Positions 21,205-39,971 of a stretch of DNA of 64,000 nucleotides are shown here, piece by piece. The translations under genes were made by a program, and so were the position numbers. Within the stretch, counting starts at the first letter, position 1; the number at the start of each line of letters is the position of its first letter. This DNA comes from Acidobacteriota bacterium (lineage in GTDB: Bacteria > Acidobacteriota > Aminicenantia > Aminicenantales > Saccharicenantaceae): the NCBI GenBank assembly GCA_039683095.1, contig JBDKSB010000007.1, positions 1 through 64,000 on the forward strand, in the 5' to 3' direction. The notes beneath the pieces are model-generated. The model was given only the letters and a program-made list of their open reading frames with translations, ran no database searches and was not told the DNA's origin.

Positions 21205-21349
21205 AAAAGGGGGACATGACCTTTTTCTCTTGAAAAAGGATCGTGTCCCCTTTTTGCGAAAACCGTGTCACGGAAAAATCGGGGCATGCCCCATCTCTCT
21301 TGAAATGGGATCGTGTCCCCCCTTTTCACGAAAACCGTGTCACGGAAAA
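21205..21349. repeat. REP-like palindromes downstream of era
   Basis: Two hairpins occur here. The first, 21205-21254, has arms AAAAGGGGGACATGACC and its near-complement ending in GTCCCCTTTT. The second, 21281-21320, has GGGGCATGCCCC pairing with a GTGTCCCC arm. Both share the loop TCTCTTGA. A 21-base direct repeat starting CGAAAACCGTGTCACGG occurs at 21257 and 21329. The GGGGACA core is shared with the element at 14951-15058. Confidence 0.75.
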
Positions 21350-21452
21350 GGTCCGTGTCCCTTATTTATCCCGATTTGCATTGTGTCTTCCCGTTCCCCC
21401 TCTTATTTGACTAGAATTTCCCGTAATGCGATAATCTATCGCCAACTCGGAC

Positions 21453-21526
21453 GGTGAGTGTAGCTCAACGGTTAGAGCATCGGACTGTGGATCCGAAGGT
21501 TGGGGGTTCGATTCCCCTCACTCACC
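21453..21526 (+). tRNA. tRNA-His (GTG anticodon)
   Basis: The 74-base gene folds into a full cloverleaf. The acceptor stem pairs GTGAGT/ACTCAC with the extra G(-1)-C73 pair found only in tRNA-His, the D arm is TAGCTCAACGGTTAGAGC, and the anticodon loop CTGTGGA has GTG at 21487-21489. The T arm has the TTCGATT loop. CCA is not encoded. The 3' part is repeated about 4.2 kb downstream, which marks it as an integration site. Confidence 0.95.
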
Positions 21527-21528
21527 CT
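21494..21528 (+). repeat. Left attachment-like repeat in the tRNA-His 3' end
   Basis: This 35-base segment covers the T arm and acceptor 3' side of tRNA-His. It recurs at 25676-25710 with 33 of 35 bases the same. The layout is that of an attL/attR pair left by integration into the tRNA gene, where the element restores the tRNA. Confidence 0.65.
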
Positions 21529-21733
21529 TGAGTTTTTCTTCCGATACCCGATTCATGCTGATGAGCATACCGAAAGGCTCGCGCCAGCTGACGTAGCTTT
21601 CGGTGGGCCGACACACGACCTTGTCTATGAGCACTGCCAGCAGGATTGCGCGCCTCCCATCAGTGTCAGCCGCGCTGTATTGAGCCTTGTCCCCCTTGAG
21701 CAGGTCTATCAGCACAACACCGGTGGTTTCCAA
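21518..21733 (-). pseudogene. Possible relic of a serine-recombinase C-terminus
   Basis: The 71-codon frame reads DTDGRRAILLAVLIDKVVC and then WREPFGML. This resembles the end of large serine recombinases, where RR-x-LL-x-x-hydrophobic is followed by a strand and a PF motif. No catalytic domain is present upstream, so at most a fragment remains. Its stop codon lies inside the tRNA-His 3' end, the position expected for an integrase gene next to its own attachment site. The match is by pattern only and could be chance. Confidence 0.35.
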
Positions 21734-22159
21734 CTAAGGGCATTCCATCCTACAGGCTGGATACGCGGTTTCCGTATCACTTAGTTATTACTCTGGTTCT
21801 CACTTTAGGGAGTTAGAGGGTCTTATGGAATTCTTATTCCATTCGCCGCCGACCGTTCCGGCTTCCTCGGGCAGCCACCAAAGCGATGGCGCGGCAAAGG
21901 CCGCACGAAGATTCCCTTCGGGAACCAGGAGGGGAGCAGCTCCCCTCCGGCCACCCCACGAAGAAAGACATCCCGTGGCCTCCGGCCACGCCGGGCCGCT
22001 GCCCGGACTTCGCAGGGGAATAATATTCATCCTCTGCACCACAGTCTCTTTCTAATGAACTTAGGAAATCGTACGCCGCGTATAAAAGTTTAAAAGAAAC
22101 TCCTTGACGCGAACCGGAGAAGCGGGGAGAATTTTGCTATCTGCTGAAAGGAGAAGATT
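21734..22159. other. Gene-free stretch with four consecutive hairpins
   Basis: No convincing gene is present. Between 21912 and 22006 there are four perfect inverted repeats in a row: TTCCC/GGGAA (21912-21924), GGAGGGGAGC/GCTCCCCTCC with a one-base centre (21928-21948), CGTGGCC/GGCCACG (21974-21990) and CCGGGC/GCCCGG (21991-22006). The GC content of this part is well above the surroundings. It may be a structured RNA or a recombination or replication site; no known family is recognised. Confidence 0.45.
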
Positions 22160-22594
22160 ATGGGCATCACAGATAAGGTTAAGTGGGCTTGGGACGCCGT
22201 CGCAGTGCTGACTGCCCTCTTGGACAAGTGGCGTCCGCGCAACTGCGAGACCGAAAAAGAATATGAAACTTCCCTCTACAACTTCCTTCATAAAGAACTC
22301 GAAGACCGCCAAATCACTAAGCAATCCGGCAAGGGTCGTTTCCATGCCGACCTGGTCGTTGATGACCAGTTTATTATCGAAATCAAGCTCAACCTTAATA
22401 CGACTGCGCAGTACCAGCGTCTCAAGGGCCAAGTGATGGAGTACAAAGAGTGGACAGGTAAGGTCATTTTGCTCTTGATAGGAAAGGCTGACCAAAATCT
22501 TAAAAAGGACCTAGCTTCGTTCCTGAAGAAAGAGGGTCTTCGCGATTCGTGGGACATGTCCGGCGATAAGGTCTTGGTTATATATAAATCGTAA
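22160..22594 (+). CDS. PD-(D/E)XK-nuclease-like protein of the island
   Basis: The 144-residue product contains RFHADLVVDDQFIIEIKLNL at about residues 66-85. This is the D...EIK layout of the PD-(D/E)XK nuclease fold (catalytic Asp, then Glu-x-Lys on the next strand), followed by a helix with QYQRLKGQVMEY. An N-terminal helical part contains CETEKEYETSLYNFLHKEL, often seen in small restriction-like nucleases of this fold. AAGGAGA precedes ATG 22160. Codon use is AT-richer than the core genome. Activity and target are unknown. Confidence 0.6.
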   Translation: MGITDKVKWAWDAVAVLTALLDKWRPRNCETEKEYETSLYNFLHKELEDRQITKQSGKGRFHADLVVDDQFIIEIKLNLNTTAQYQRLKGQVMEYKEWTGKVILLLIGKADQNLKKDLASFLKKEGLRDSWDMSGDKVLVIYKS

Positions 22595-22661
22595 AAGAAG
22601 GGAGCAGTGCGCCGCCTGAGGAGAGCGCCGACTTGAAAAAGCGAAGCGAAAGGGTGATGGG

Positions 22662-23291
22662 ATGAACTTGTGGAAAAAGATTCTGGGACTCTCCTGGAAG
22701 TTTTGCCTTGTTGTTCTGGGACTCTATGGGCTATTGAAACTTTTTCGGGAGACAAGACTTTTTGTTCTGAATATTCCCGATTGGATTTTCTTCATATGGG
22801 CAATATTTTTATCGATAATACTGGTGATTACTGTTGATTTTGTGAACAAGAACCGAGGAACACCAGTGGACGATGCTGGGCTTAAAAAAGAAATCGAAGA
22901 CTTGAAAAAGAGCTTGGAAGATACGAAAAGAGGGATTAATAATATTGAAATTGAATTTAGGGGAAAATTAAATGCCCAGGGTGAAACCATAGCTCGAATC
23001 CATAATGCACCGAAGGAATACCTTTTGGAATCAAGCAAGGAAGTCCTCTTCATCTTGGGAGTGCTTGCTAGAGTGGATTGTGAATACCTGAATAGAGGTG
23101 GCTTGCTGGTCAACTATGAACGACATTTCAAAGGGCAAGAACCGGATGAGTTTACTGCCGTTATACATGTTATGCGCGGTAATGGCCTAATCCGCTTTTA
23201 TGCCGACAATGAGGAACAAATCGCAATCACAACCAAAGGCAGTGCCTACTATCTCAAGTATAAAGAGCGGCCGAAGAAAGAGAATAAATAG
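22662..23291 (+). CDS. Membrane-anchored coiled-coil protein of unknown function
   Basis: The 209-residue protein has two N-terminal membrane segments (about 12-28 and 40-60) and a charged coiled-coil stretch (about 70-108, KKEIEDLKKSLEDTKRGI). A C-terminal globular part (about 118-200) is rich in short strands and could be a winged-helix-like domain. I do not recognise a family. It follows the nuclease-like gene by 67 bases on the same strand, and base composition is low in GC. It may be a membrane partner in the same accessory unit. Confidence 0.6.
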   Translation: MNLWKKILGLSWKFCLVVLGLYGLLKLFRETRLFVLNIPDWIFFIWAIFLSIILVITVDFVNKNRGTPVDDAGLKKEIEDLKKSLEDTKRGINNIEIEFRGKLNAQGETIARIHNAPKEYLLESSKEVLFILGVLARVDCEYLNRGGLLVNYERHFKGQEPDEFTAVIHVMRGNGLIRFYADNEEQIAITTKGSAYYLKYKERPKKENK

Positions 23292-23302
23292 AGGAGACGA
23301 CG

Positions 23303-23389
23303 ATGACCGACGAGGAAAAACTTAAGGCTTTGGGTCTGCGTGTGTCCGGGCAGGAAAAGGCTCTGGGAGAAGGAACAAAGTCGGAATAG
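23303..23389 (+). CDS. Small open reading frame (28 residues)
   Basis: ATG 23303 follows GAGGAGACGACG, a good ribosome site, 11 bases after the preceding stop. The product begins MTDEEKLKALGLRV and ends at TAG 23389. It may be a real short protein or the broken start of a longer gene, since no further coding signal continues after the stop. Confidence 0.3.
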   Translation: MTDEEKLKALGLRVSGQEKALGEGTKSE

Positions 23390-24040
23390 TTGACGTCAGC
23401 CGCTAAAATCCGGAAGTATCCAGAACTACATTTCTGGGAGCGTTATCTGGGCGACTATGGACCGGCCCTCTGCAGTGCTCAGTAGGGCGCATGGCCAGGC
23501 ATGGCCCGTCACGGCGCGGCAGCCATCTGCCTGGCCTTGGGGCTACCAACCAATGGGGAGCGCGGCCTAGCAGCCCTGGGCCAGTGTCCTGAGCGCCTGC
23601 GCCTGGGTAGAGTGGCTCAAAAAGGTAACCAACTCCTTTACTGAGGCACCCTGCCTGTTTCTTCCCATACGAACAGCAACTTATGAGTTGATTCTGTGTC
23701 CGAAATCGGTTGTTTCAGAATGGGCTATCTTAATCAATATAGCTTCATTTTTGGAAAGAAATACGGAAAGCCCCTTATCGCTCGATACATGCCAGTTCAA
23801 TACGCACTAAATAGGGCTGGGCGCCAGATAAAGTCCGCCGGCGATTCAGCAGCTGGATCCGCTCGAATGGCCACCGTTAGAACCGCCGTTATGTTGACAT
23901 CGCAGCTTGGACGGGGATATAGTCCAGGAAAATATATTTTGGGAAATTAGGTGTTACGAAGAGTGAACATAATGCCTAATGCAGGCATATTTCTGGAAAC
24001 CTCATCAATCGTCGAACGACCATAACACTCACACCGACCC
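23390..24040 (+). ncRNA. Candidate structured RNA upstream of the reverse transcriptase
   Basis: This 650-base gap before the reverse transcriptase holds no convincing gene (an 84-codon frame at 23696-23950 has no recognisable content). The first third is much richer in GC than its flanks and can fold: CCAGAA/TTCTGG around a 6-base loop near 23421-23438, and a nine-base pair GGCCAGGCA/TGCCTGGCC with nested pairs between about 23492 and 23547. Several bacterial defence reverse transcriptases use a non-coding RNA encoded just upstream, which is why this is proposed. It is not matched to any known RNA family. Confidence 0.35.
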
Positions 24041-25600
24041 ATGATCCAATGTGAAGCACATTTTAAAGAGACCGAAAAGCTCGCCAGACAGATAATCCCA
24101 GCCGATCTTGCTAAATGGCTCCTTTATCATGGATATTATCCCGAGCAATACGTTTTGCCTCCGCCTTTTACGATACAAAAGTTTGATTTATGTTCGGAGC
24201 CCTATTTTAAGGTATCACCGAAGAAGAAGAGTAAGTTCATTCCCGATATATCGGTACTTGAGACTATAGCATTCCCAAAATCCCCTCTTACGGTGAGAGC
24301 TTTTGGAATCATTGAACCCCACATCTACCACGACCTTACTTTTCATATAAGCCGTGAATGGCCGACAATCCTCGACTGCATCTTTAACAATAACCTTCGA
24401 ATCTATTCGTACAGCTTCCCCATACCAGTGACCAGGACGAAGCCCGGACGACTTGGGCGACTACGAGCAGGTCGGATGATTTATGAATTTATCGAGATGG
24501 CCGAGAATGACCTCGTAGGCGAAGCCCATAAATACAAGTATCTTTTTAAAACTGACGTTTCGAATTTCTATGCAACTATTTACACCCATAGCATAGCGTG
24601 GGCACTTCATGGTAAACAGCCCGCACGCGATGACCGTGGCTATTTCAGACTTCTGGGGTCCATAATTGACAAACTATTTCAGAGCGCAAACGATGGAAGG
24701 ACAAATGGCATCGCTGTAGGCCCAGCGATTTGCGACCTCATTTCGGAGGTGGTACTGGCGGCCATCGACAGGCGTTGCTCAGAGATCCTCACCCAACATA
24801 ATTTGGACTTCGTTGGAGCCAGATTCAAAGATGATTATCGTTTTCTATGCAGGTCAGAAGAAGATGTACAAATAATTGCCCGCGCGCTTCAGAAATCCCT
24901 CGGCGAATATAACCTTGCGATTAATGAGGGCAAGTCTGAAATCTCGAACCTTCCAGAAGGAATGTTCCGAGCATGGAAATCTTCCTACCAACATTGGTCT
25001 CTTAGGTACGAAAGAATCATCAATTATCGGTCCTTTGAAACTACTCTACTTTCTGTCCTGAGAATTGACGAACAGTATCCTGGTGGGGGAATTATTGACA
25101 GTTTCCTCAGTGAACTGACCACACGAAAATTTGGCCTTAAACTTGACCTTAACGAATCAGAAGCAAGAAAAGCCTATAGCCTCTTATTACTTCTCAAGCA
25201 GAGAAGAGCCAAGTCATTTCCTTCTATTCTTGCCATTGTCGAAGCCGTGCTCAACAATTACGGAAGCTATCATGTTTTTAGGGAGTATGTTGCCAATTCT
25301 CTCTCCGAGATGCTTGAACGATTATCAGGTGAGCCCGACGAAAACGAATACGACATTATTTGGACGTTCTACTTCTTGTCAGTGGTACTTGGCCGGGCCG
25401 ACACCAAGTTGCCGTCTTCAACAAACCAAGTTGTCCGCTCAATTCTTACGGGTTCGCAATGCTTCCATGACGGTCAGAAGGATTCTGTTCTGTTTAAAAT
25501 GATAACTCATCCTGCGCCAATGAATCACCTTCTCAAACATCTGGCCGTTTTCCATCGCAATAAGACTTCCGACGCGCAAGGCAATCCCGGCCAATGTTGA
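24041..25600 (+). CDS. Reverse transcriptase, Abi/unknown-group (defence) type
   Basis: The 519-residue protein shows the ordered RT motifs. Motif A is KTDVSNFYATIYTHSIAWAL (metal-binding D172), motif B is GIAVGPAICDLISEVVLA (about 223-240), motif C is RFKDDYRFL with the DD pair at 264-265 (FKDD instead of the common YADD), and motif D is LAINEGKSEI (about 292-301). No maturase, endonuclease or retron-type C-terminus is seen; residues 330-500 look all-helical, as in Abi and DRT proteins. The IYTHSI-x-WALHG stretch is, to my knowledge, typical of unknown-group RTs linked to phage defence. ATG 24041 has no Shine-Dalgarno sequence, and an in-frame stop lies just upstream. The gene is AT-richer than the core and lies inside a tRNA-bounded island. 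Confidence 0.8.
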   Translation: MIQCEAHFKETEKLARQIIPADLAKWLLYHGYYPEQYVLPPPFTIQKFDLCSEPYFKVSPKKKSKFIPDISVLETIAFPKSPLTVRAFGIIEPHIYHDLTFHISREWPTILDCIFNNNLRIYSYSFPIPVTRTKPGRLGRLRAGRMIYEFIEMAENDLVGEAHKYKYLFKTDVSNFYATIYTHSIAWALHGKQPARDDRGYFRLLGSIIDKLFQSANDGRTNGIAVGPAICDLISEVVLAAIDRRCSEILTQHNLDFVGARFKDDYRFLCRSEEDVQIIARALQKSLGEYNLAINEGKSEISNLPEGMFRAWKSSYQHWSLRYERIINYRSFETTLLSVLRIDEQYPGGGIIDSFLSELTTRKFGLKLDLNESEARKAYSLLLLLKQRRAKSFPSILAIVEAVLNNYGSYHVFREYVANSLSEMLERLSGEPDENEYDIIWTFYFLSVVLGRADTKLPSSTNQVVRSILTGSQCFHDGQKDSVLFKMITHPAPMNHLLKHLAVFHRNKTSDAQGNPGQC

Positions 25601-25675
25601 CCCTGTCAGATTCTCTCTCCCTCTTTCTGATGTAACATACTTCGGATTGACAAGCCAAGGTCGTTGGCTGTGTAT

Positions 25676-25710
25676 GCGAAGGTTGGGGCTTCGATTCCCC
25701 ACACTCACCC
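25676..25710 (+). repeat. Right attachment-like copy of the tRNA-His 3' end
   Basis: This 35-base copy differs from 21494-21528 at two positions only (25688 and 25700), both in the T-arm stem. No acceptor 5' half or anticodon arm precedes it, so it is not a second tRNA. A small hairpin AGCCAA/TTGGCT lies just before it. It marks the right end of a 4.2-kb integrated unit. Confidence 0.65.
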
Positions 25711-25774
25711 TACTCTGAAACATGCCAAGCCAAGGCTGGTGTAGGGTGGAGTTTGCAATTCGGCATAGGAGGTA

Positions 25775-27060
25775 GGGCCATCGTAAACTCTCTTCAAACG
25801 GCAATCCGAAAGAGAGGAGACGTTTTACTACGATGGCCCAGCCGCATTATAAGTCACCCCTCGAAAAGGCGCTATTGCAGTTCATCACGGAACCGGATCC
25901 GTACCCGGCCATGCTCAAGTGGGTCATGACCGAGATGATGAGGATCGAGGCGGAAGCCAAGGTCGGAGCGGCCAAGGGGAAGCACAGCTCCGAGCGCGCG
26001 ACCTACTTCTCCGGAGCTCGGGCCCGAAGGGTCGATACGAGGCTCGGGACGGTTTATCTTCCCGTCCCCAAGGTCCGGAAGGGCGGCTAGGTGCCGTTCT
26101 TCGTCTCGGAGCGGCGCCGGTCTGAACAAGCCCTGATCGCGGTCGTTCAGGAAGCCTTCGTCAACGGGGTTTCGACCCGGAAGATCGAGCGCCTGGCCGA
26201 CGCGATGGGCATCGAGAACGTCTCGGCTTCTCAGGTCTCGGAGTTCAACAAGGAACTCGATGCCCAAGTCGGGGACTTCAAGGCTCGCCCTCTGGCCGAG
26301 GAGTATCCCTTCCTCTGGATCGACGCCCTCTATCAGAAGGTCCGTGTTGAAGGCCGGGTCGTCTCGGTGGCCGTTATGATCGCCTGTGGGGTCAATCCGG
26401 CCGGTTCTCCAGAGATCCTGGCTGAGGAGCCCATGTTCGACGAATCGGAGGACTCGTGGCGAGTCTTCTTCCGGAAGCTCAAAGCCCGGGGCATGAAGAG
26501 GACAGCCCTGGTTATCTCCGACGCCCACGCCGGGATCCAGGCCGCGGCGCGGAAGGAGTGGCTGGGTGCCTCTTGGCAGCGCTGCAAGGTCCACTTCATG
26601 CGGAACATCCTGGCCAAGGTGCCGCATCGTGAGAAGGCCCGCTTCGCGGCCCATCTGAAGCAGATCTGGCTCGAGCCTGATAAAAAGAGCGCTCGGCGAG
26701 CTGCCGGGGCTCTCATCGACGACTACGGGAAGCGCTTCCCCGAGGCCATCCACTGTCTCGAAGAGGGTCTCGAGGACTCGCTCTCGCTCTATGACTTCCC
26801 GGAGGTCGACAAGAAACGCATCTCCTCGACCAACGGCCAGGAGCGGCTGAACATGGAGATCCGCCGGCGGAGCCGAGTCGTCGGCGTCTTCCCCTCGGTC
26901 GAGAGCTACGTCCGGCTGACGATCTGCTATCTCATCGAATACTCGGAAGACTGGGCGAGTGAACGCAGTTACATCCGGGAGGACAAGGTCCTTGGATCCC
27001 TGGATAGGCTCCATGAACTGACGGCTCAAGCGGCTAACTGAAGTGAGTGAGCGATGGCCC
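25775..27060 (+). mobile_element. IS256-family insertion sequence
   Basis: The 1286-base element is bounded by imperfect inverted repeats starting GGGCCATCG (25775-25783) and ending CGATGGCCC (27052-27060), with about 18 of 25 positions agreeing. Length and single transposase gene fit IS256. No 8-9 base target duplication is visible. Its right end abuts the leading part of an IS110-type element. Confidence 0.75.
25833..27041 (+). pseudogene. IS256-family transposase interrupted by an amber codon
   Basis: Mutator-type DDE transposases cut and paste DNA. The frame is open over 402 codons except for one TAG at 26088-26090 (residue 86), where related proteins usually have Tyr in a KVRKG-x-(Y)-P-F region. 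Downstream the DDE residues are present: D in LWIDALYQKV, D in VISDAHAG, and E in TNGQERLN. A GTG directly after the TAG could start a shorter protein lacking the N-terminal part. The single-base lesion suggests recent decay or a sequencing error. Confidence 0.85.
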
Positions 27061-28252: not shown

Positions 28253-28615
28253 TCATGCCGTTAAGACGGCGCATACATGCATCTGACGAAACGGGCTAAG
28301 AGCTCTGGACGAAACGAGTGCCTTTAAAAAGGAGGCAAGATAAAGAAAGTAACTCCCCGTTGACGCAGCGCTTTCATACATGCGAACATCAGTTGACACG
28401 GCCGTGGCTAGAGCCCAATGTTCCTTCTCTTGTGCCTTCAGGACGTAATCCACATAGCCTATGGTTAAAAGAATGCCCAGCAGGGTTGTGGTCAGGTTTA
28501 TGAACAATCCGCGCCAAGGAACCAAGATGGCCAAGACAAACGCGGCCGCAACCATGAGAGCAAGGGGCTTGATGAGTTTCTTCCATAAAGAATGGGGGAA
28601 CATTTTTATGGGCAT
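28253..28615 (-). pseudogene. Two-helix membrane protein, probably truncated by the IS110 insertion
   Basis: ATG 28615 is preceded by GGGAGGAGG. The 120-residue product has two adjacent membrane segments (about 16-35 and 38-58), then a short charged tail with VLKAQEKEHWALATAVSTDVRMYESA. The last 20-30 residues are read from sequence that looks like the IS110 right flank, so the original C-terminus seems replaced. The family is not recognised. It is the last gene of a minus-strand array of unknown genes. Confidence 0.45.
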
Positions 28616-28681
28616 CCCTTGCCTCCTCCCACTGAGACTCCCTTGCCCCTCCGAGCGCCTATCTCTACGAGGCGCGATCAT
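28616..28681 (-). repeat. Recurrent leader, copy A
   Basis: Read on the minus strand, this gap carries GATCGCGCCTCGTAGAGATA, then GGCGCTCGGAGGGGC and a purine-rich ribosome site. GCGCCT and AGGCGC can pair. Related leaders lie before the genes starting at 33351 and 32807. The gap runs from the stop of one gene to the start of the next. Confidence 0.5.
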
Positions 28682-28687
28682 CCGCCT

Positions 28688-29284
28688 TCACCGGCGTAAA
28701 AAGAAGCATCCGAGTCCAACAAAAAGCAGAATGATCCCGATCCCAACGATAGGTTTATATGGAATGTATGCCACGCGGTCCTGCATAACCCACACATCCT
28801 TCATCTCGTTCTTCTTAAGCTCCTCCAACAACTCCTCAATCTTCGACAAGTCTCGTATCTGCTCTTCATCAAGTAGGGCTTTAAGCGGATACGCATCTTC
28901 TAATTCTTGCAGAATTTCCCTCTCTCTCTTTTCTCCTTTCAAGGCTGAGATATACTCGTCATACGAAAGGTCAGAAAATTTCTTTTTCCAGTAATTGTAT
29001 GAATCTCGATTTGGTTCCATTTTAAAAAACGTCCTCGGACTAGCCGCGTAAGATCCCCGGACCAAAGGCGCACGTAGATATAGAATAAGATTACTTATTC
29101 TATCTCTGGGTATTGTTAGTTCATTAAGAATCCCAATTTCTTTGGAATTGAGTTTTCGCTCAACCTTCCTGATATGAAAGGCCAGCTTGATTTTTCCGTT
29201 TTCTTGAAAGAAATAGGTTGATAATGGCAGTCCAACACCGACCAGAATTATGAGCAGTCCGAGCCTTTTCTTGCCAGTCATCAT
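28688..29284 (-). CDS. Membrane protein of unknown function
   Basis: The 198-residue product has a membrane segment at each end (about 8-26 and 178-195). The mainly helical, highly charged middle includes a stretch of acidic repeats (EELLEELKKNE). GAGGAGGGT precedes two consecutive ATG codons (29284, 29281); either could serve. No family is recognised. It belongs to the minus-strand array and has its own leader, shared with the gene starting at 36252. Confidence 0.6.
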   Translation of the reverse strand: MMTGKKRLGLLIILVGVGLPLSTYFFQENGKIKLAFHIRKVERKLNSKEIGILNELTIPRDRISNLILYLRAPLVRGSYAASPRTFFKMEPNRDSYNYWKKKFSDLSYDEYISALKGEKREREILQELEDAYPLKALLDEEQIRDLSKIEELLEELKKNEMKDVWVMQDRVAYIPYKPIVGIGIILLFVGLGCFFLRR

Positions 29285-29303
29285 ACCCTCCTCGCCAACT
29301 CTA

Positions 29304-29357
29304 GCTAACTTTTATCCTAACAAAACAGGCACAACCTATGCAATCCACTTTTCCGCC
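29304..29357 (-). repeat. Recurrent leader of the second type, copy 1
   Basis: On the minus strand it begins GGCGGAAAAG and ends GTTTTGTTAGGATAAAAGTT, just before the ribosome site of the gene starting at 29284. A close relative (36265-36322) precedes an unrelated gene. The IS21 element is inserted 38 bases upstream. Confidence 0.5.
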
Positions 29358-29538
29358 GCCTCTGCTGGTCGATCTCGGGCCGAGTAAGGATTTGTGTCCA
29401 GAGGCGTGGTAATTTACGAGCGGATCGGCGCATAGATTTACGAGTTGGGCCAGCGGTCTTGGGCCGGCTTGAAGGTTCTCCGCAGGCCGGTGTTGTAGCA
29501 TCCTTCTCTTTCATCTTCGAGACGGAGAGGAGAGAGGG

Positions 29539-30785
29539 ATGGCGCAGAAGAGACTCACCCTCGACGAGGCGGACTTCATTATGAAGCTGGACGAAGTAGG
29601 ATTTTCCAACTCGGAGATCGCCCGTAAGCTCGGGGTGACGGAAGGAGCGATTCGGTACCGGATCAAGCGTCAAGCTTCCAGGGAGCCCGACGGCGGACGA
29701 GTAAGCCCTCGGATCTCGATCCCTTCCGGGAGTGGATCGGAGCCTGGATCGCGGATTATGAGGACAGCCGGCGCCGGCCGACACTTCGGCTCCTGGAGCA
29801 GATGCTGAGGGAGCATCACGGCTACCGGCGCTCCTATGACGCCCTACGGCGCTATGTCCGGAAGCGCTTCCCGGAGTTCTGGAAGAAGGGGGCCCGGGTG
29901 AGGCTGGAGACGCCGCCCGGCAAGCTTCTGTTCGTCGACTGGAAGGAAGACATCCAGGTCCAGCTCGGCGCGGCGGGCGCCTGGGCGCTGGTGCAGGCGC
30001 TGTGCTTCGTGCTGGGCTTCAGCCGGAAGACCGTGGTCTGGTTTTCGTTCCATAAGGACCTTTCGAGCTTCCTCACGGGTCATCAGGCGGCGTTCCGCGA
30101 GTACGGAGGACTGCCGGAGGCCATCCGCCCCGACTGTCTCCGTTCGGCAGTCCGGGTCTGGCGCGGCGCGGCTTCGGCCTTGAACGAACGCTACCGCAAG
30201 TACCTCGAGCCTCTTGGCGTGATCGTGCTCCCGGCCAGGCCCGGGGCTCCCGAGGATAAGGGCAAGATCGAGAAGCGGATCCTGGATCTGTTCTCGCTGC
30301 TGGATCTTCGCCATCGCGTTTATCGGGATCTGGATGATCTCCAAGCCCGGGCTGGTATGGTGCTGGCGGAGTCGGAGAGCACTTGGCGTTCCGGCGCGAC
30401 GGGCTTCTCGGTCGTCCGGAGCTTCGAGTACGAGACGGCCTATCTCCGGCCGCTGCCGGCGCACTTTCCGGCGCTTCCGGTCAAGGAGTCGCGGACCCGG
30501 GCCCGCCGAGACGGCACGGTCTTCTTTGACGGCAACTGGTACCAAGTCCCGGGTCTGTACCGTGACCGGGCGGTTCTCTGCCGGCACACGGGCCACGAGA
30601 TCCTCATCGATCACGAGGGCGCGGAGATCGGCCGGTTCGCAGCTCTGCCCCAAGCCCGGGGCATGGTCCGCCTCTCTGTCCAGGCGCTCGAGGACCCCGC
30701 CGTCCATCTGAGCGAGAGGGTCAGGATGTGGGGCCTCGAAGTAGCCCGGCGCCAGGTCCAGATCTATCACGAGGTGAGCCGATGA
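29539..30785 (+). pseudogene. istA: IS21 transposase IstA with a frameshift
   Basis: IstA is the DDE transposase of IS21. The N-terminal helix-turn-helix (MAQKRLTLDEADFIM then NSEIARKLGVTEGAIRYRI) is in one frame. The rest continues in the -1 frame: FREWIGAWIADYED, then LLFVDWKEDIQVQL with the first Asp, and PGAPEDKGKIEKRI with the Glu region. The shift falls between about 29690 and 29720 and no classical slippery heptamer is visible, so decay is more likely than programmed frameshifting. The gene end overlaps istB by four bases (ATGA). Confidence 0.85.
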
Positions 30786-31543
30786 AGCTTCAGGCGATCG
30801 AGCGGAACATGGAGATGCTGAAGCTGGTGCATACCCGGGGCTGTGTGGCCGAGCTTCTCGAGGAGGCCTCGCGGGAGAAGCGCGGCCCCTTGGAGTTTTT
30901 CGACAGGCTCCTGGCGATGGAGGTGGAAGCCAGGGAAGAGCGACGCATCGCCGCCTCGCTCAAGGTCTCGGGCCTGCCGCGGGGGATGCGCCTCGAGTCG
31001 TTCGACTATCTCTTCCAGCCGGCAGTCGAGAAGGCCCGAGTGGAGTTCCTGGGGACGAGCGACTATATCCGGCGGGCGGAGAACGTCCTGCTGTTCGGGC
31101 CGCCGGGCGTGCGCAAGTCGCATCTGGCGGTCGGGCTGGGCGTCCGGGCCGTCGAGCACGGCTTCAGCGTCATCTACTACACCGTCGAGGAACTTCTCCA
31201 GCAGCTGAAGCGCCGAGCCGAGATCCCCGTGGCCAAGCAGCGGGGTCGGGCCTATGTTAAGTGCAGCCTGGTCGTGGTCGACGAGCTCGGCTATCAGACG
31301 CTCGACCGGACGGAAACGCATCTGTTCTTCCAGTTCATCTCGGTCCGGTACATGAAGGGCTCGACGATCATCACCTCGAACCGCTCGGTCAAGGACTGGG
31401 TCCAGATCTTCGCCGGTGACGAGATGGCCGCGACCGCCATCCTGGACCGCCTCTTCCACAAGGCCCACATCTTCAACATCGACGGGCACAGCTACCGGCT
31501 GAAGGACTTCAACCAGGCTTTGAAGGGAGCGCCCCTGGAATGA
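30782..31543 (+). CDS. istB: IS21 helper ATPase IstB (Walker A altered)
   Basis: IstB is a DnaC-like AAA+ ATPase that chooses target DNA and activates IstA. The 253-residue product has the Walker A region at 106-113 reading GPPGVRKS, where the family has GxGKS. The glycine before lysine is Arg111, explained by one G-to-C change. Walker B LVVVDELGYQTLD and the sensor region STIITSNRSVKDW are intact. The Arg replacement should disturb the P-loop, so this copy may be inactive. Confidence 0.9.
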   Translation: MKLQAIERNMEMLKLVHTRGCVAELLEEASREKRGPLEFFDRLLAMEVEAREERRIAASLKVSGLPRGMRLESFDYLFQPAVEKARVEFLGTSDYIRRAENVLLFGPPGVRKSHLAVGLGVRAVEHGFSVIYYTVEELLQQLKRRAEIPVAKQRGRAYVKCSLVVVDELGYQTLDRTETHLFFQFISVRYMKGSTIITSNRSVKDWVQIFAGDEMAATAILDRLFHKAHIFNIDGHSYRLKDFNQALKGAPLE

Positions 31544-31617
31544 GCTGGTTCCAGTGCCCCCAAGGCCTCGTAAAAGTAAGCGCCGATTTACCTCGTAAAT
31601 CTACACGCCGATTGACA

Positions 31618-31913
31618 ATACTTTAATAAAAAAAGAATGATGGTAAGTGACTGTCCCGCCTGATGTTACGGCGACTCGGCAGGGTCAGTCATGGAGTTAT
31701 TAATGATCAGAGGCAGGGGCCTGGGAGTAGCGGGCTGGGAACGGGAGTGCGTGCCCCATAGGCGGATTCAACACCGCCTCGATTACCGCCCGTTTCTTGC
31801 TATCGGATTCTCTCCACACACAGTTCCCCGCTCGGATCGCGTTCCCAAGTTCCGGCAGGATGGTCAGCTGAAACCAGCAGTATTGTTTTCCTATTGCTCT
31901 TTGCTGACTAGTA
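31618..31913. other. Gene-poor stretch right of IS21
   Basis: I see no supported gene in these 296 bases. A 102-codon plus-strand frame crossing the region (31691-31999) has no ribosome site, an unlikely composition and overlaps a better minus-strand gene. No clear repeat or terminator was found. Confidence 0.4.
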
Positions 31914-32234
31914 TTACCTCAAACTCAAGAAGAACCCTATTAGCATCAAAAGAATTGCGAGGATTGGTAAGTCCCCTACTACCCTGCGACGCCACTTAGC
32001 ACGGTTTTCCATGAGCTTCCAGAACACAGGGTCCTTTTGCATCCTGTTAACAATCTCAAGTTCTTTCGCTCTGGCTTCGAAATCAAACAGCTTCTTTCCT
32101 CCCGTCAGTTTATAGAAGAATCTCTGCTCCGGAGGCAGTCCTTTCCAATCGCTGACATACTTTCCCCAAAACACGTTGACGCTCAGCAGGATTGATCCAG
32201 CAGTTAAGCAGAGTAGTCCTATGTTCTGACGCAA
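31914..32234 (-). CDS. Small two-helix membrane protein
   Basis: The 106-residue product has membrane segments at about 5-23 and 86-104 with a charged middle (FEARAKELEIVNRMQKDPVF). It starts with TTG at 32234, directly after the stop of the preceding gene, so translation is probably coupled. The helix-middle-helix layout resembles the 198-residue protein at 28688-29284, though no sequence similarity is obvious. The function is unknown. Confidence 0.5.
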   Translation of the reverse strand: MRQNIGLLCLTAGSILLSVNVFWGKYVSDWKGLPPEQRFFYKLTGGKKLFDFEARAKELEIVNRMQKDPVFWKLMENRAKWRRRVVGDLPILAILLMLIGFFLSLR

Positions 32235-32807
32235 TTACTTTTCCTTATTATGCGTCAGCAGTGCTACCGCAACTGGCATTTCGTCTTTTGCCAGTTCTAT
32301 TAGAGGATTACCTATTCCTTCTTTTCTATTACCTTCTCTCATCTTCACCAAGAGAAGTTGGCACATAGTTTTTGCCTTCCCGTCTGGCATTTCGCCAATT
32401 ATTTTTTCGATATACTTGGTCTCCGATACAGGATAGAACAGTTGTATTAGCAGAGTGGTAAGATCATCTTCCATCTTCTTGATCTCGCCAATACTAACCA
32501 GTATACGTCTTGTCTCGCCGACACTCATTCCGCTCAACTTTTCTATCGAAGCCTGTATTTCATTCGTGGCCTTCTCTCTATATTCGTAAAACTGGCTCTT
32601 CTCGAAATCTAGCCGGGCCTTTTCTTCTCCCATCTTTGAAAATGATTTTATTTTGTCCGGGTCATAAACTGAGAGAAGGGCGCAAGCGCGGTCAAAATCT
32701 CCTTTAAGGTTTCCGATCTTAGACCTCTGATGAAAGTAAATGACAATAAGGCCGATAAGATAGAGGATCGGAAAGACGATATTACCGAGTATGACTGATA
32801 AACTCAT
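32235..32807 (-). CDS. Membrane-anchored helical protein of unknown function
   Basis: The 190-residue protein has one N-terminal membrane segment (about 5-25) and then a long helical, charged cytosolic part with coiled-coil character (EKARLDFEKSQFYEYREKA). GGGGAGG lies about 9 bases before ATG 32807, at the end of a recurrent leader. It is followed without a gap by the gene at 31914. No family is recognised. Confidence 0.6.
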   Translation of the reverse strand: MSLSVILGNIVFPILYLIGLIVIYFHQRSKIGNLKGDFDRACALLSVYDPDKIKSFSKMGEEKARLDFEKSQFYEYREKATNEIQASIEKLSGMSVGETRRILVSIGEIKKMEDDLTTLLIQLFYPVSETKYIEKIIGEMPDGKAKTMCQLLLVKMREGNRKEGIGNPLIELAKDEMPVAVALLTHNKEK

Positions 32808-32880
32808 CTAGCTACCTCCCCTAATGAGAATCCCACGCCTCCCGAAACGTCTATCTAAGTGAGTCACGATTAATGACCGA
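32808..32880 (-). repeat. Recurrent leader, copy C (diverged)
   Basis: Minus-strand sequence with TTAGATAGACGTTTCGGGAG followed by GCGTGG and AGGGGAGG aligns with copies A and B over its length but with more changes. It occupies the whole gap between the genes at 32887 and 32807. Confidence 0.4.
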
Positions 32881-32886
32881 TCCACT

Positions 32887-33351
32887 CTATTCCATAACCT
32901 CCGGTGTCCACTGCATGATCGGCTTCATCGCCAAATAACGTGCTTCACCTCTCAGGTCTGGCCTATGCGCGTTATCAGTAAGCAATTCAAAAGCCCCTTT
33001 TGGGCAAAGCATAAAGCAGAACCTAGGCATCATTCTAGAAAACAATCGCGCATACCCCTTGAGGTGCTTCTTGTTCCAAAACATCAACACCTCTGTGTCC
33101 TCGCTAAGCGACTTTGCCTTCATTGCTTCGCAAAGGTTCTTAAAGTCGAGCTTGTGGCAAATGAACCCTTCAACTTGCTGTGGCATCTTTGAACATTCGA
33201 ACGTAACTGCCGCGTACGGCATGGTCCTGTTCGGGGCGTGGACTCTGCCGCTCTTAATCTCTGCCATCGGTGTACAGTCCTTTACTCTACACGCATCTCC
33301 CTCTATTACTTGCCAGTCGATATCTCTAAGCATTGTTGTTTGACCAGCCAT
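32887..33351 (-). CDS. Hypothetical protein of the accessory array
   Basis: The 154-residue product is soluble. It contains seven cysteines, among them FECSKMPQQVEGFICHKLDF and FCFMLCPKG, but no regular zinc-finger spacing. GGGAGGA precedes ATG 33351. It is flanked on both sides by the recurrent leader. No family is recognised. Confidence 0.55.
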   Translation of the reverse strand: MAGQTTMLRDIDWQVIEGDACRVKDCTPMAEIKSGRVHAPNRTMPYAAVTFECSKMPQQVEGFICHKLDFKNLCEAMKAKSLSEDTEVLMFWNKKHLKGYARLFSRMMPRFCFMLCPKGAFELLTDNAHRPDLRGEARYLAMKPIMQWTPEVME

Positions 33352-33420
33352 TTCAATCCTCCCTTGTGAGGCTTCGACGCCTCTTCGAGCATCTATTTCT
33401 ACGAGGCGTGATCCTAAAGA
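33352..33420 (-). repeat. Recurrent leader, copy B
   Basis: On the minus strand GATCACGCCTCGTAGAAATA is followed by GATGCTCGAAGAGGCGTCG and a ribosome site. ACGCCTC and GAGGCGT can pair around an 18-base loop. It matches copy A closely over about 35 bases although the genes that follow are unrelated. Confidence 0.5.
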
Positions 33421-33442
33421 AGAGAAAGCGGGTCTTGGTGAA

Positions 33443-34228
33443 CTAGCTGATCTGCGTGCTTGCCTTTGCTTTTAAGATCTCCTCGGCTTCCTTCAGGCCC
33501 GGCGCGAGAATACGCAACCGATCATTCCCGTCATTGTCTACAACTGATAAAATCCTCTGCACTGCCATTCGCGCGTTATCTGGCGTGAACTGATTTCGCG
33601 TGATGGTATCAATGAGGTCTTGTTTAGATAATCTCCGCGGATGATAGTGAGCCAAAGCCAAGAGCGCTACGTCTCTTGCAGTCTTCTTTCTGAGGTGGAA
33701 ATAGACGCGGCCATCAATTTCTTCTATAGAGGGATACTTCTTAGCAGTCAGAGAATCAACTAGTGCTTTTGCCTCTTCGGTATGCATGACGCCCTTTTGG
33801 GAAAGGCGCATCAACTCAGCAAGAACCCACGAGCATGTAGGCACTGCGACACCAGCGTCCATTTCGTTCGGATCAATGTCCCCGGGATCATGTCGGCCTC
33901 CACGGTTACTTGCAATATCATAAATGAACCGGCAGGCTCGGGGGGTCAAGACTCTAATACTGTCGTCGTACGTTCCACGAGGTAGGTTCTCTAGCCCATT
34001 AATGATCGTATCCGCACTAAATCCTCTTCCTGAGGGCAGGGTGTTTCCTACATGAATACATAGGGCCTTCAATACGGCCTCGACAAACTTCCCTACTTTA
34101 AAGAGACAGTTTTCCCACCTGCCAGCCTGGAACTCACTAACAAGAATGGTATAGTGGCGAAACGCGGCCGAAATGTTTTTCTTGGGAAAATGGGGAACTA
34201 GGAGCTCTTGTATACGTATCTTAGCCAT
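33443..34228 (-). CDS. Abi_C/HEPN-like protein with a C-terminal winged-helix-like domain
   Basis: The 261-residue product has a helical N-terminal half containing SEFQAGRWENCLFKVGKFVE and SNRGGRHDPGDIDPNEMDAG. This resembles the abortive-infection C-terminal (Abi_C/HEPN-like) fold, where an Arg...His pair sits before a helix. Residues 185-260 look like a winged helix (LSKQDLIDTITRNQFTPDNARMA region). Its start overlaps the upstream gene's stop by 8 bases. The three genes 34989-33443 form a tight operon. A toxin or RNase role is inferred only from the weak HEPN resemblance. Confidence 0.5.
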   Translation of the reverse strand: MAKIRIQELLVPHFPKKNISAAFRHYTILVSEFQAGRWENCLFKVGKFVEAVLKALCIHVGNTLPSGRGFSADTIINGLENLPRGTYDDSIRVLTPRACRFIYDIASNRGGRHDPGDIDPNEMDAGVAVPTCSWVLAELMRLSQKGVMHTEEAKALVDSLTAKKYPSIEEIDGRVYFHLRKKTARDVALLALAHYHPRRLSKQDLIDTITRNQFTPDNARMAVQRILSVVDNDGNDRLRILAPGLKEAEEILKAKASTQIS

Positions 34229-34664
34229 TGGCCTTAGGGAATATCTTTTTCCAATTTGGCCGCAGGAAGTAGACGCCCTTTTTCTTGGAATTGACCCAAT
34301 CGTTTTCTATTGCCCGCCCAGGGTAACTGGGATGAAACGCCATGCCCAATAGGGTGGCCGACTTCATTTTGCTCCACTGTTTTTCAATGTCCTTGGAAGC
34401 GACCTCCGCCTTTTCATCACCCTTTGCGAGGTAGCTAAGAAGAAGGGCGAACTTTGCTGGACCGCCCATTCCTTTGGCGTAACTCTTGATGAACGCTCGT
34501 ATCGGCTTGCCAAAATCGGGACTCAGTTCCTTCGGTTTCTGATCATGGGGTACATTTCTTTTTGTTGAGCGGTGCGCTGGCGCCGAGTCCTCCACGCTCT
34601 TGAGACACTTATCAGCAAGAGCCTTGATCTGCTGGAGATAAGATACAAACTCGTCTTTATCCAT
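34221..34664 (-). CDS. Hypothetical protein, middle gene of a three-gene operon
   Basis: The 147-residue product is helical and basic, with FIKSYAKGMGGPAKFALLLSYLAKG in the middle (cut here into the KSYAKGMGGPAKFALL core). It ends in a strand-rich WVNSKKKGVYFLRPNWKKIF that looks like the wing of a winged helix. ATG 34664 follows the previous stop by 4 bases, with AGGAGG about 11 bases upstream; an in-frame start at 34685 would overlap that gene. The function is unknown; tight spacing suggests a complex with its neighbours. Confidence 0.55.
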   Translation of the reverse strand: MDKDEFVSYLQQIKALADKCLKSVEDSAPAHRSTKRNVPHDQKPKELSPDFGKPIRAFIKSYAKGMGGPAKFALLLSYLAKGDEKAEVASKDIEKQWSKMKSATLLGMAFHPSYPGRAIENDWVNSKKKGVYFLRPNWKKIFPKANG

Positions 34665-34668
34665 ATAT

Positions 34669-34989
34669 TCACTTCCTCCTAACAAATACGTTTCGTCCGC
34701 CTTCCTTTAGTAACACGAGTGGACCTCGACGTGTTGAAAGTCCCTTAAGGGCCATATCAACAGCCTGTCTGCTCCAATGGTAACCATTCTTGGTAAGAGC
34801 ATCCCAGACTTCACCGAGTTTTCTTTTTTCGCTGAAAAATCCCTTGGAAATAAGGAAGCGTACTCCCCCCGTGGCTCCACTATAGCTCTCCGCTTTCTTA
34901 TCGGGATTCGGCTTCGCTTTCCTAACGAATACTGCGTCTTCAAGACGAGCTATCCGCGCCTCAAGAGCCTTTATTGCTTCGTCTGACAT
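34669..34989 (-). CDS. Small coiled-coil and winged-helix protein
   Basis: The 106-residue product has a short N-terminal coiled coil (IKALEARIARLEDAV). It is followed by a winged-helix-like domain with GGVRFLISKGFF, KLGEVWDALTKNGYHWSRQA and a hairpin ending GGRNVFVRRK. Similar domains are common next to unknown genes in mobile regions of bacteria and archaea. CTAAGGAGG precedes ATG 34989. It is the first gene of the operon and may be its DNA-binding regulator. Confidence 0.55.
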   Translation of the reverse strand: MSDEAIKALEARIARLEDAVFVRKAKPNPDKKAESYSGATGGVRFLISKGFFSEKRKLGEVWDALTKNGYHWSRQAVDMALKGLSTRRGPLVLLKEGGRNVFVRRK

Positions 34990-35155
34990 CCCCAGGCACC
35001 TCCTTAGAGATGAACTATTGATGAAAGCGTACTGCTAACTTATTGTTAATTCAAGCCTTTTTTGGCTCTCCCCGCCCGTATGCTGGTAGAACAGAGGCAG
35101 GGCTGGTATTAGGGGTGGTTCGCCAATAGCCAGCCTCGGCGCTGGCGGCATGTAG

Positions 35156-35827
35156 TTAACGAATTATCTCACCCATCATGGACATTATTTCTTCAGAATA
35201 TATGCCAAAAAGGAACTCTTCAATTTCCCGGTCGGTCAGGTTGGCACTCTCAGGGTCGTTTCTCGTCTTGACCCAAGCAGCACGGTAAGTTTCCGTCTTT
35301 TTAAATAGCTCGAATTGGGCTTTGCGAAATTTGTTGAACGCCCGCCTGCTACCCCGCCATTCCTTTATAATCTCCCCCTTGCTAACCCAGAGTATCCAAT
35401 AGCTCGAATATTCGGAGGCATACCCCATCATCACTCGCTTAACTAATTTGCCCGTTGGCACAATGATGTGGCCGCTAAACCATTCGGCAAAGACTTCACG
35501 TTGTCCTGGGAATATTTCACTCAGGACGGAACGCCACCTATTCTCTTCCGGCCCCTCCATTGAGGCGAGAATTCGAATATCGGTAATGACAAGTTTCTTA
35601 TTCTTGAACTCCCAAGATGCAACATATCCGCGCCATAAGCCGGTCGAATGAATCCGAGATCTCGGGCGGCTGTCGGGATGCTGTTCGAGGTAACGCTCAA
35701 GAGGATTAGTTTGGATTTTGTACTTCTTTCCCTCGTGAGTTAGTATGTCGCCTTGCTGCGCAGTCCCAAAAACGAACTGACCGCAGATCCCCACGAATAA
35801 CAGAAGTGTGAGTAGAATGCGCCGCAC
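35156..35827 (-). CDS. Exported protein of unknown function
   Basis: The 223-residue product starts with GTG at 35827 after GGGAGGAG and has a clear signal peptide (RRILLTLLLFVGICGQFVFG). The mature part contains EGKKYKIQTNPLERYLEQHP, LWRGYVASWEF, LFP-like SEIFPGQREVFAEWFSG and MMGYAS. I recall this pattern in a family of uncharacterised periplasmic proteins found in many Gram-negatives. Function unknown. It is 29 bases downstream of the next array gene. Confidence 0.65.
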   Translation of the reverse strand: MRRILLTLLLFVGICGQFVFGTAQQGDILTHEGKKYKIQTNPLERYLEQHPDSRPRSRIHSTGLWRGYVASWEFKNKKLVITDIRILASMEGPEENRWRSVLSEIFPGQREVFAEWFSGHIIVPTGKLVKRVMMGYASEYSSYWILWVSKGEIIKEWRGSRRAFNKFRKAQFELFKKTETYRAAWVKTRNDPESANLTDREIEEFLFGIYSEEIMSMMGEIIR

Positions 35828-35856
35828 GTTACTCCTCCCTTTATTGAGCTAAGGAA

Positions 35857-36252
35857 CTACCTAGCCTTGCCATCCTTCCTGGCCACCAATGGGATTAGTG
35901 CAAGCCTTGGCCGATTCCTTTCCTTATCCCACGAAATCGTGATGGTGTATTGCTTCAACGTAGTCCTGACATAGCGGTTTTGCTTCGCCGTCCTGTAAAG
36001 TGTCAGCTGCGCTTGAAGTTCATCTCCCGGCTCATATAGATCGGGTCGGGTAGATTTGGGTGTGATCTTCACTATCTTGCCTTCGGCAATCAACTTCGTT
36101 ATCTCCGCCAGTGAATAAAGCCGGTATCCCAGCCCTGGCTCCCTCTTAATTCGATAGCCATACTTCCTCAGCTGGATCGGAGTGAAGAGCTCTTCGTCTT
36201 CGAAGAATACATTAGGGAACGGCGGATAGTCATTCTCCTTCTTTTCGGTCAT
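35857..36252 (-). CDS. Hypothetical protein with a MerR-like N-terminal motif
   Basis: The 131-residue product has FTPIQLRKYGYRIKREPGLG, then YRLYSLAEITKLIAEGKIV. This recalls a short helix-turn-helix or MerR-type recognition region, followed by a basic strand-rich C-terminus. I chose ATG 36252 because GGAGG lies 6 bases before it; the frame extends 37 codons further upstream over the recurrent leader. The function is unknown. Confidence 0.5.
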   Translation of the reverse strand: MTEKKENDYPPFPNVFFEDEELFTPIQLRKYGYRIKREPGLGYRLYSLAEITKLIAEGKIVKITPKSTRPDLYEPGDELQAQLTLYRTAKQNRYVRTTLKQYTITISWDKERNRPRLALIPLVARKDGKAR

Positions 36253-36264
36253 GCTTTCCTCCCG

Positions 36265-36322
36265 GCTAACTCTGATCCTAACAAAACCGGCCCGGCCATT
36301 ACAATCAGACCCCTTTTCCGCC
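36265..36322 (-). repeat. Recurrent leader of the second type, copy 2
   Basis: On the minus strand it begins GGCGGAAAAGGGG and ends GGTTTTGTTAGGATCAGAGT, matching 29304-29357 although the genes that follow are unrelated. Just upstream, GATCACG and GCGAGCGGAGGGGGC resemble the first-type leaders. Confidence 0.5.
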
Positions 36323-36680
36323 CCCTCCGCTCGCCTCAGCGACGTGATCTCCCGCCTAACCATATCCTAAGACTGGTTTAGAATCGTTCGCCTCGTATAC
36401 GCGATCCTGCGAAAGCCGACGCCTCCTCCTCCGTCGCGCCTGCGGCGCTCCGTCGTCCTCGGCATCGACTTTCTCCGGACGACAGTGCAAGAACAGACGC
36501 TTCTTCTGGCCTGATCAGATTCTTTTTCACTGCCCGCTTCGGGCAGTCATCCGCCGCTTCGGCGGATGTGCCATCCTCTCCCGGCATGGACGTTTCTTAT
36601 CCGTCCTGCCCGAGTTAATATCTATTTAATATATTACCCTCCCTGCATCTCATTGACTATGAACACGCTTACAGTGATTT
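36323..36680. other. Gene-free stretch with twin GC hairpins and an AT-rich patch
   Basis: Two perfect 8-bp hairpins with the same CTT loop follow each other: ACTGCCCG/CGGGCAGT (36529-36547) and ATCCGCCG/CGGCGGAT (36549-36566). An AT-only stretch of about 20 bases lies at 36618-36638. A minus-strand 69-codon frame here (36378-36587) has no ribosome site and is not supported. With the nearby direct repeats this could be a replication or transfer origin. Confidence 0.4.
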
Positions 36681-36733
36681 GACTCAGTAAGAATGAAAAG
36701 TCAGAGCCAAAAACTCAGTAAAAACGAAAAGTC
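36681..36733. repeat. Two iteron-like direct repeats
   Basis: ACTCAGTAAGAATGAAAAGTC (36682-36702) and ACTCAGTAAAAACGAAAAGTC (36713-36733) differ at two positions and are 31 bases apart, three helical turns. They lie about 35 bases downstream of the stop of the putative initiator gene. Initiator-binding iterons have this size and spacing, but two copies are few. Confidence 0.5.
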
Positions 36734-36767
36734 GCTTGATCGGTCTGCTAATCCGATAGAATCGTGA

Positions 36768-37847
36768 TTAGTGTGACTGAGCCGCTCGAACCTTTTCCTG
36801 GCGGAAGTGACTCATGAGAAGACGTTTGATCTCTTTCTTGCTGGCCTTCAGGACCCAGATCCGCTCCTGTCCCACGCCCCCACGAAGCCGCTCGGTCGTC
36901 TTGTCGCGTCGCCAGTCCACGGCGGTCGTGATCTCAGAAAGATACTTCTCGATGTACTCGGGCTGGAACTTGACGGGCGTCTCAGAATAGCCGAGCACCC
37001 GGCAAGCCACCGGGTAGGTCAGCCACCAGCCTCCCCTCCTGAGCACAAAAGGAAGACCCTGGCGGTATAACAGCTGAGCCCCTTTGGACATTTTATATGC
37101 AATCTTTGCGATCTCAAGGAGCCGATGGTAGGACTGGTTGTTCAGGATGAGTTCGGAGAATCTAGGTGCCAATCGGCCCGAGAAGATCAGATCCTCCCTG
37201 CCACTTTCTTTTCCGGGTCGTCCACGGCGCTTCACTATCTGCACGTCCCAGTCCATGATAAACTGCGTTCCTCGGATGGTAACGACCTTCTTCCAACCCT
37301 TCTTCTTATCCTTCTCCTCCCAAACGTGATACTGACTCAACGTCCAATTCAGCAAGCATGCGAAGGCTTGGATCAATTCTGAGAAGCTGACCTTGCGTCC
37401 GGTGGCCTTTCTGACCTCAGACATAGAGAGCTCGAACTTCAGGATGTGCTCCTCCCCCCCCGGCGAAATGATCACCTTGTCGGCGATGTGCCGTTTTGGG
37501 TTCCTTATAATCGGATTTAGTAGGGCTTCCAGGAACCAGATCGCCGTCAACGGCAGTGCCTGAGGATTCACGTTGCCCGTTTCCGGGTTAACCGGCAAGT
37601 GAGCCCAGTGGAGGGACTGGTCCTTCAAGAGCGGCCTGTTCTCCCTCTCCTCTTTAAGACGTCGCTCCTCCTCCTGTAATCTCACTAATTGCCGCGTGTA
37701 CCAGGAGAGGATGTCCAGCGGTTTGCTGCCAGGAGTCGGCCGGGATAGCCACATTTGAATGTAGCCCCAGTAGGCCTTGTCCTCTAATGCTTCCTCGGTC
37801 AGGTAGGGCCAAAGTTGAATTGCCCTTCCCTTACTTACGTCGATCAT
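36768..37847 (-). CDS. Putative plasmid-type replication initiator (winged-helix protein)
   Basis: The 359-residue product is basic and soluble. It has two regions that look like winged helices: LKFELSMSEVRKATGRKVSF (about 150-170), and a later part with SKGAQLLYRQGLP, GGWWLTYPVACRVLGYSE and KYLSEI (about 260-330). The layout of a strand, helix and LYR motif followed by a second winged domain recalls Rep_3/TrfA-type initiators. The match is by pattern only. GGCAGGAG precedes ATG 37847; an upstream start in the same frame lacks a ribosome site. Two iteron-like repeats lie just beyond its stop. Confidence 0.4.
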   Translation of the reverse strand: MIDVSKGRAIQLWPYLTEEALEDKAYWGYIQMWLSRPTPGSKPLDILSWYTRQLVRLQEEERRLKEERENRPLLKDQSLHWAHLPVNPETGNVNPQALPLTAIWFLEALLNPIIRNPKRHIADKVIISPGGEEHILKFELSMSEVRKATGRKVSFSELIQAFACLLNWTLSQYHVWEEKDKKKGWKKVVTIRGTQFIMDWDVQIVKRRGRPGKESGREDLIFSGRLAPRFSELILNNQSYHRLLEIAKIAYKMSKGAQLLYRQGLPFVLRRGGWWLTYPVACRVLGYSETPVKFQPEYIEKYLSEITTAVDWRRDKTTERLRGGVGQERIWVLKASKKEIKRLLMSHFRQEKVRAAQSH

Positions 37848-39439: not shown

Positions 39440-39502
39440 CGGCCCTTGCGCCAGTAAGCCAGACCGGGCAAGAAGCGGATGGTTGCCGGGGGGCTGATCG
39501 GT

Positions 39503-39892: not shown

Positions 39893-39971
39893 TCCCGTCT
39901 CTCCATTCATGGCTCATCCGGTCGCGCGGACCGCGACCGGACTCCGGCGATCTCGCCGGGAGATCCCGGCG

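Follow-up and report, generated by a model that had tools for sequence, protein, structure and literature searches.

A stretch of 64,000 nucleotides (nt) from an Acidobacteriota bacterium (GenBank assembly GCA_039683095.1, contig JBDKSB010000007.1, positions 1 to 64,000; hereafter the window) carries, directly behind a tRNA-His gene, what is left of a mobile element that had inserted at the 3' end of this gene (21528-25711), a decayed and ordinary-looking island. The one intact recognisable defence gene of this island encodes a stand-alone reverse transcriptase (RT) that belongs, by its sequence, to UG14, unknown group 14 of the UG/Abi RTs. Taken together, it is likely that the island is the remnant of an element of the serine-recombinase type and that its UG14 RT would act by itself, in the manner of DRT4 and the Abi enzymes, as a protein-primed polymerase producing untemplated DNA in abortive infection. 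The UG14 group was already listed in PADLOC and is functionally unstudied; the RT described here is a new member of it.

The RT matched the PADLOC profile RT_UG14 (PDLC03751) with 609 bits (E 1.3e-183) over model positions 3-492 of 493, the next family, Drt6, reaching 219. An earlier note on this DNA had described the protein as an uncharacterised RT of the Abi/unknown-group type and had proposed a profile search; the type was borne out, both by this score and by a fold nearest to those of DRT4, DRT6 and Abi proteins, whereas "uncharacterised" must give way to a named group. Also in line with that note, the enzyme falls outside the clades of group II intron and diversity-generating retroelement (DGR) RTs: the NCBIfam group II model gave 35 bits, its cut-off being 300, both classes scored far below in Foldseek searches, and no Rfam intron was found in 21300-26000. 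The NCBIfam Drt4 equivalog was likewise rejected (148 bits against a cut-off of 450), and the RT is therefore not a DRT4.

For the AlphaFold model of the RT (predicted local distance difference test, pLDDT, 86; predicted template modelling score, pTM, 0.88), alignments of 447-542 columns with DRT4/UG15, DRT6, Abi-P2 and AbiK ranked first in the PDB, and the RTs of group II introns, retrons and DGRs scored much lower; searching PDB sequences by profile gave this same ranking. The full-length match to these four proteins includes a C-terminal helical (alpha-Rep) domain, with helices at residues 329-449 of the model. In an alignment of the 14 UG14 proteins the catalytic residues D172, D264 and D265 were invariant. 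The priming tyrosines of AbiK (Y44) and Abi-P2 (Y61) are located in the alpha2-alpha3 loop of the fingers (PMC9508834). The corresponding loop of the UG14 model extends over approximately residues 30-92, and Tyr37 is the sole tyrosine within it that is invariant in the 14 proteins, which makes it, on the basis of the model, the candidate priming residue.

Fourteen UG14 relatives, 13 of them clear and full-length and showing 39-50% identity, were found in genomes of Bacteroidota, Pseudomonadota, Cyanobacteriota, Chloroflexota and Planctomycetota. No further strong UG14 match was obtained among 396 genomes of the bacterium's own phylum; this, together with the presence of relatives in five other phyla, implies horizontal transfer, and acquisition of the island by this route is supported. 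UG14 was absent from viral contigs, and in plasmids and phages only distant RTs were detected (at most 25-34% identity). In a phylogenetic tree the 14 UG14 rows were placed on one side of a branch with support 63/92; the outgroups were few, distant and only partly recovered, so that the tree carries little weight. The neighbours of UG14 genes varied and, at several loci, included type I restriction-modification genes, UvrD-type helicases, a Gp49-like (toxin-like) protein or DUF3644, which fits with mobile or defence contexts.

The island is delimited by a direct repeat of 44 nt and 91% identity, formed by the 3' half of the tRNA-His gene, from the anticodon loop to the 3' end, and its distal copy. 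In the best register, a 35-nt core of this repeat (21494-21528 and 25677-25711) is identical at 33 of 35 positions, in contrast with no more than 21/35 when the 22 kb downstream were shuffled ten times and no more than 22/35 elsewhere in the window. The GC content is 0.41-0.58 between the repeats versus 0.62-0.70 in the core DNA on both sides. The earlier note had already recognised the recurring tRNA 3' end, the layout of integration into a tRNA gene and the lower GC; all of these stand, except that the second copy of the core lies one base away from the position given there (25676-25710).

Comparison with relatives indicated that the region is accessory and not core DNA. In 60 relatives, 21528-22160 had no homologous DNA, and the only counterpart of 23290-24045 was a 44-nt match in the closest relative, G002. 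The tblastx comparisons of high-GC DNA yielded mostly background; strong long blocks alone were used. The sequence directly after tRNA-His differed, or the contig stopped, in every relative read, and the tRNA-His gene is thus a hotspot. A clean empty tRNA-His site was sought among the relatives and none was found; an exact one is not confirmable because an insertion sequence (IS) of the IS256 type begins about 23 bases beyond the distal repeat and because the relatives present differing DNA or a contig end at this place.

The recombinase relic suspected between the repeats turned out to be real. It is what remains, at the C-terminus, of a large serine recombinase of the tRNA-targeting kind; homologous stubs and intact recombinases with the same type of motif were found as well. 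One homologous stub lies in G002 just beyond that genome's tRNA-His repeat (L103/L050), and another, in the bacterium's own genome (G000:C6), abuts a tRNA-Glu gene (L105 4915-5130 and 5131-5206, respectively). Two large serine recombinases of the same genome are intact; their frames extend into tRNA-Pro and tRNA-Arg genes, and close to the C-terminus they have the same motif of the W-N-x-P-F type. In one locus (L107), the frame of an intact serine recombinase at 496-2310 overlaps both tRNA-Pro (520-594) and tRNA-Arg (618-694). An 18.4-kb element at tRNA-Arg (L115 943-19358; G000:C12:297942-316357) has an intact serine recombinase overlapping the tRNA and a far-end repeat of the tRNA 3' half (48 nt, 96%); with a terminase large subunit and a head protease among its cargo, it looks like a prophage or a phage satellite. 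Serine-recombinase elements that target tRNAs and are bounded by repeats of their 3' halves thus recur in this lineage.

Most likely, the window island was integrated by a large serine recombinase that it encoded itself and that survives only as the C-terminal stub. Insertion of the island by a tyrosine integrase since lost, the stub being a leftover of an earlier element, is a serious possibility but a doubtful one. In G002 a 9.4-kb island with an intact tyrosine integrase and an excisionase is situated between tRNA-His and a 46/46 repeat, the serine-recombinase stub lying beyond it, and a 44-nt patch of the left end of that island recurs at 23727 in the window. The window stub, however, is found inside the repeats and directly at the tRNA, like the intact recombinase of the tRNA-Arg element. 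The patch itself is likely a trace of another tRNA-His element. As for the G002 island (L050 5413-14975), it also encodes a primase-helicase-like protein and three cargo proteins without PADLOC matches.

With regard to function, class 1 UG RTs, which have a domain of helical repeats, synthesise DNA with no nucleic acid as template, and in some cases a tyrosine of the protein serves as primer (PMC13174585; PMC9508834). DRT4 is a single-gene enzyme whose random single-stranded DNA (ssDNA) becomes toxic once a phage protein protects it, and DRT6 is similar (PMC13213688). By analogy with these enzymes, the UG14 RT is most likely a DNA polymerase of the DRT4/Abi type, encoded by one gene, primed by the protein itself and independent of a template, and probably has an anti-phage role that it would perform alone. 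It would form an oligomer of RT-fold polymerases, trimeric or hexameric as expected of class 1 UG/Abi RTs, in which the C-terminal helical domain stands in for the template; synthesis would start on the enzyme's own tyrosine, perhaps Tyr37 in the helix 2-3 loop of the fingers, and would proceed without an RNA template. Upon phage infection the DNA would be stabilised or would accumulate, leading to growth arrest. It is conceivable, but rather doubtful, that UG14 is a separate DNA-writing defence of one gene that departs from DRT4 and Abi RTs either in its trigger or in a product that is patterned, homopolymeric or base-biased. An ordered, protein-templated product, as opposed to random DNA, is unlikely: DRT3b, also of class 1, synthesises poly(CA) with no nucleic acid to copy (PMC13174585), and random and patterned output are not told apart by sequence alone, but the enzymes nearest to UG14 by fold and by profile are DRT4/UG15, which makes random ssDNA, and DRT6, not DRT3b.

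Several points weigh against a functional, serine-recombinase-borne UG14 RT of this type. A tyrosine integrase, such as that of G002, could have produced the 44-nt repeat in place of a serine recombinase. The island may also be composite, because the 750 nt upstream of the RT consist of decayed sequence and the trace of another element. The literature searched, which left out the 2022 survey defining the UG/Abi groups and the DRT4 paper, contained no report on UG14, so that its function rests on homology, and the structural model was built from only 14 sequences. Furthermore, the window protein forms the longest end branch of the UG14 group (0.98 versus about 0.4) and its motif A reads NFYATIY in place of the consensus NFYPSIY; the long branch and this departure could reflect relaxed selection in a decaying island. 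No evident ribosome-binding site precedes position 24041. For the branch length, the motif A variant, the decayed surroundings and the missing ribosome-binding site, loss of function keeps a small probability; a decaying, non-functional RT is nevertheless quite improbable, given that the 519 codons are open, without any frameshift, and that all invariant catalytic residues are present.

That the RT depends on a nearby RNA gene for a template or cofactor, in the way of class 2 DRTs, appears very improbable. The GC-rich upstream segment 23390-23700 has a slightly more stable predicted fold than shuffled sequences, with an unconvincing z of -1.7. Against this, UG14 loci share no upstream or downstream DNA, even where the RTs are 75-88% identical, save for one neighbour gene at two Pseudanabaena loci, which argues against a conserved flanking non-coding RNA; moreover, the fold is that of the helical-domain class 1, and the Rfam search returned tRNA only.

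The genes between the stub and the RT had been combined with the latter, in the earlier note, into a possible new anti-phage unit. The first, coding for a PD-(D/E)XK-like protein, matched Pfam PDDEXK_3 with an E of 0.015 and 16 bits, under the gathering cut-off of 22, and its single-sequence model was poor (pLDDT 47). One close homologue was found (57-60% identity), alone between lpdA-like and malic-enzyme-like genes of G019, and none in plasmids or viral contigs. The second, coding for a membrane coiled-coil protein, had no homologue in family genomes or plasmids and no Pfam match above the cut-off. Together with a truncated third open reading frame (ORF), both form a small operon, followed by about 750 nt of decayed DNA before the RT. 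Although the nuclease-like, membrane and RT genes share one strand, one 4.2-kb island and a common low GC, a multi-gene system composed of the three is extremely improbable, since neither neighbour was present at any of the 14 UG14 loci (0/14), the nuclease homologue of G019 stands alone, and the membrane gene and the RT are set apart by the decayed stretch and the truncated ORF. As neither a gene nor a flanking RNA accompanies UG14 from locus to locus, the proposed unit is not supported, and the nuclease-like and membrane proteins are probable passengers.

Table 1. Features of the tRNA-His island and its borders in the window.
Feature	Position	Strand	Remarks
tRNA-His (GTG)	21454..21527	+	integration target; ARAGORN
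Proximal repeat	21485..21528	+	tRNA-His 3' half, anticodon loop to 3' end
Large serine recombinase, C-terminal stub	21521..21733	-	W-x-E-P-F motif; 3' end converges on tRNA 3' end
PD-(D/E)XK-like protein	22160..22594	+	144 aa; D64, E74-x-K76, Q86/Q91
Membrane coiled-coil protein	22662..23291	+	209 aa; ORF
Truncated third ORF of the same operon	23304..23390	+	28 aa after good ribosome-binding site; direct sequence reading
Patch matching the left end of the G002 tyrosine-integrase island	23727..23770	+	44 nt, 86% identical
UG14 reverse-transcriptase-like polymerase	24041..25600	+	519 aa, intact; catalytic D172, D264, D265; candidate priming Tyr37
Distal repeat	25668..25711	+	repeat of tRNA-His 3' half
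IS256-type element	25735..27041	+	just outside distal repeat; left end repeated elsewhere in genome; Pfam, NCBIfam

Low-GC, IS-rich accessory DNA, overlooked in the earlier note, continues beyond 25711 to about 39.95 kb, and DNA shared with G002 resumes at approximately 39950; the 4.2-kb unit is thus a single layer within a more extensive plastic region behind tRNA-His. The IS256-type transposase (25833-27041) occupies one frame, split by an in-frame TAG at 26088-26090. Within the low-GC zone at 28253-39950, which has an IS110 transposase (NCBIfam) just upstream, a Mu-like/IS21-like transposase was located at 29802-30785, along with at least seven minus-strand proteins without PADLOC matches or Pfam matches above cut-off, one of them weakly HEPN-like (33443-34228). 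A GC-rich segment with several short inverted repeats (21834-22020), which separates the recombinase stub from the nuclease operon, had no homologue in the 60 relatives and no Rfam match. Upstream of the tRNA, at 21205-21349, a dispersed repeat (GGGGACA...CCGTGTCACGG) with many further sites in this genome and genus occurs twice in tandem.

From the alignment, the fold match and the lack of partners, it is predicted that one gene would suffice for the activity and that it would involve residues D264/D265 and Tyr37. In this respect, UG14 would help to establish whether DNA synthesis by a single gene and without a template is a general trait of class 1 UG enzymes. As regards the known elements and systems, the window island resembles the tRNA-Arg element of the same genome in having a recombinase that converges on the tRNA and a distal copy of the tRNA 3' half, whereas in the latter the recombinase is intact, terminase and head protease genes are carried and no RT occurs among ORFs of at least 200 aa. 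The UG14 RT shares with DRT4 (UG15) and DRT6 the single-gene organisation, a full-length fold match (template modelling score, TM, 0.63-0.65), the catalytic motifs and the helical C-terminal domain, in spite of only 21% identity. With Abi-P2 and AbiK it has in common the fold (TM 0.54-0.65), a motif A of the form DxxNFY..IYTHS, the xxDDY motif and the topology of the priming loop; it differs from them in its sequence (16-20% identity) and in that its priming tyrosine is a candidate.

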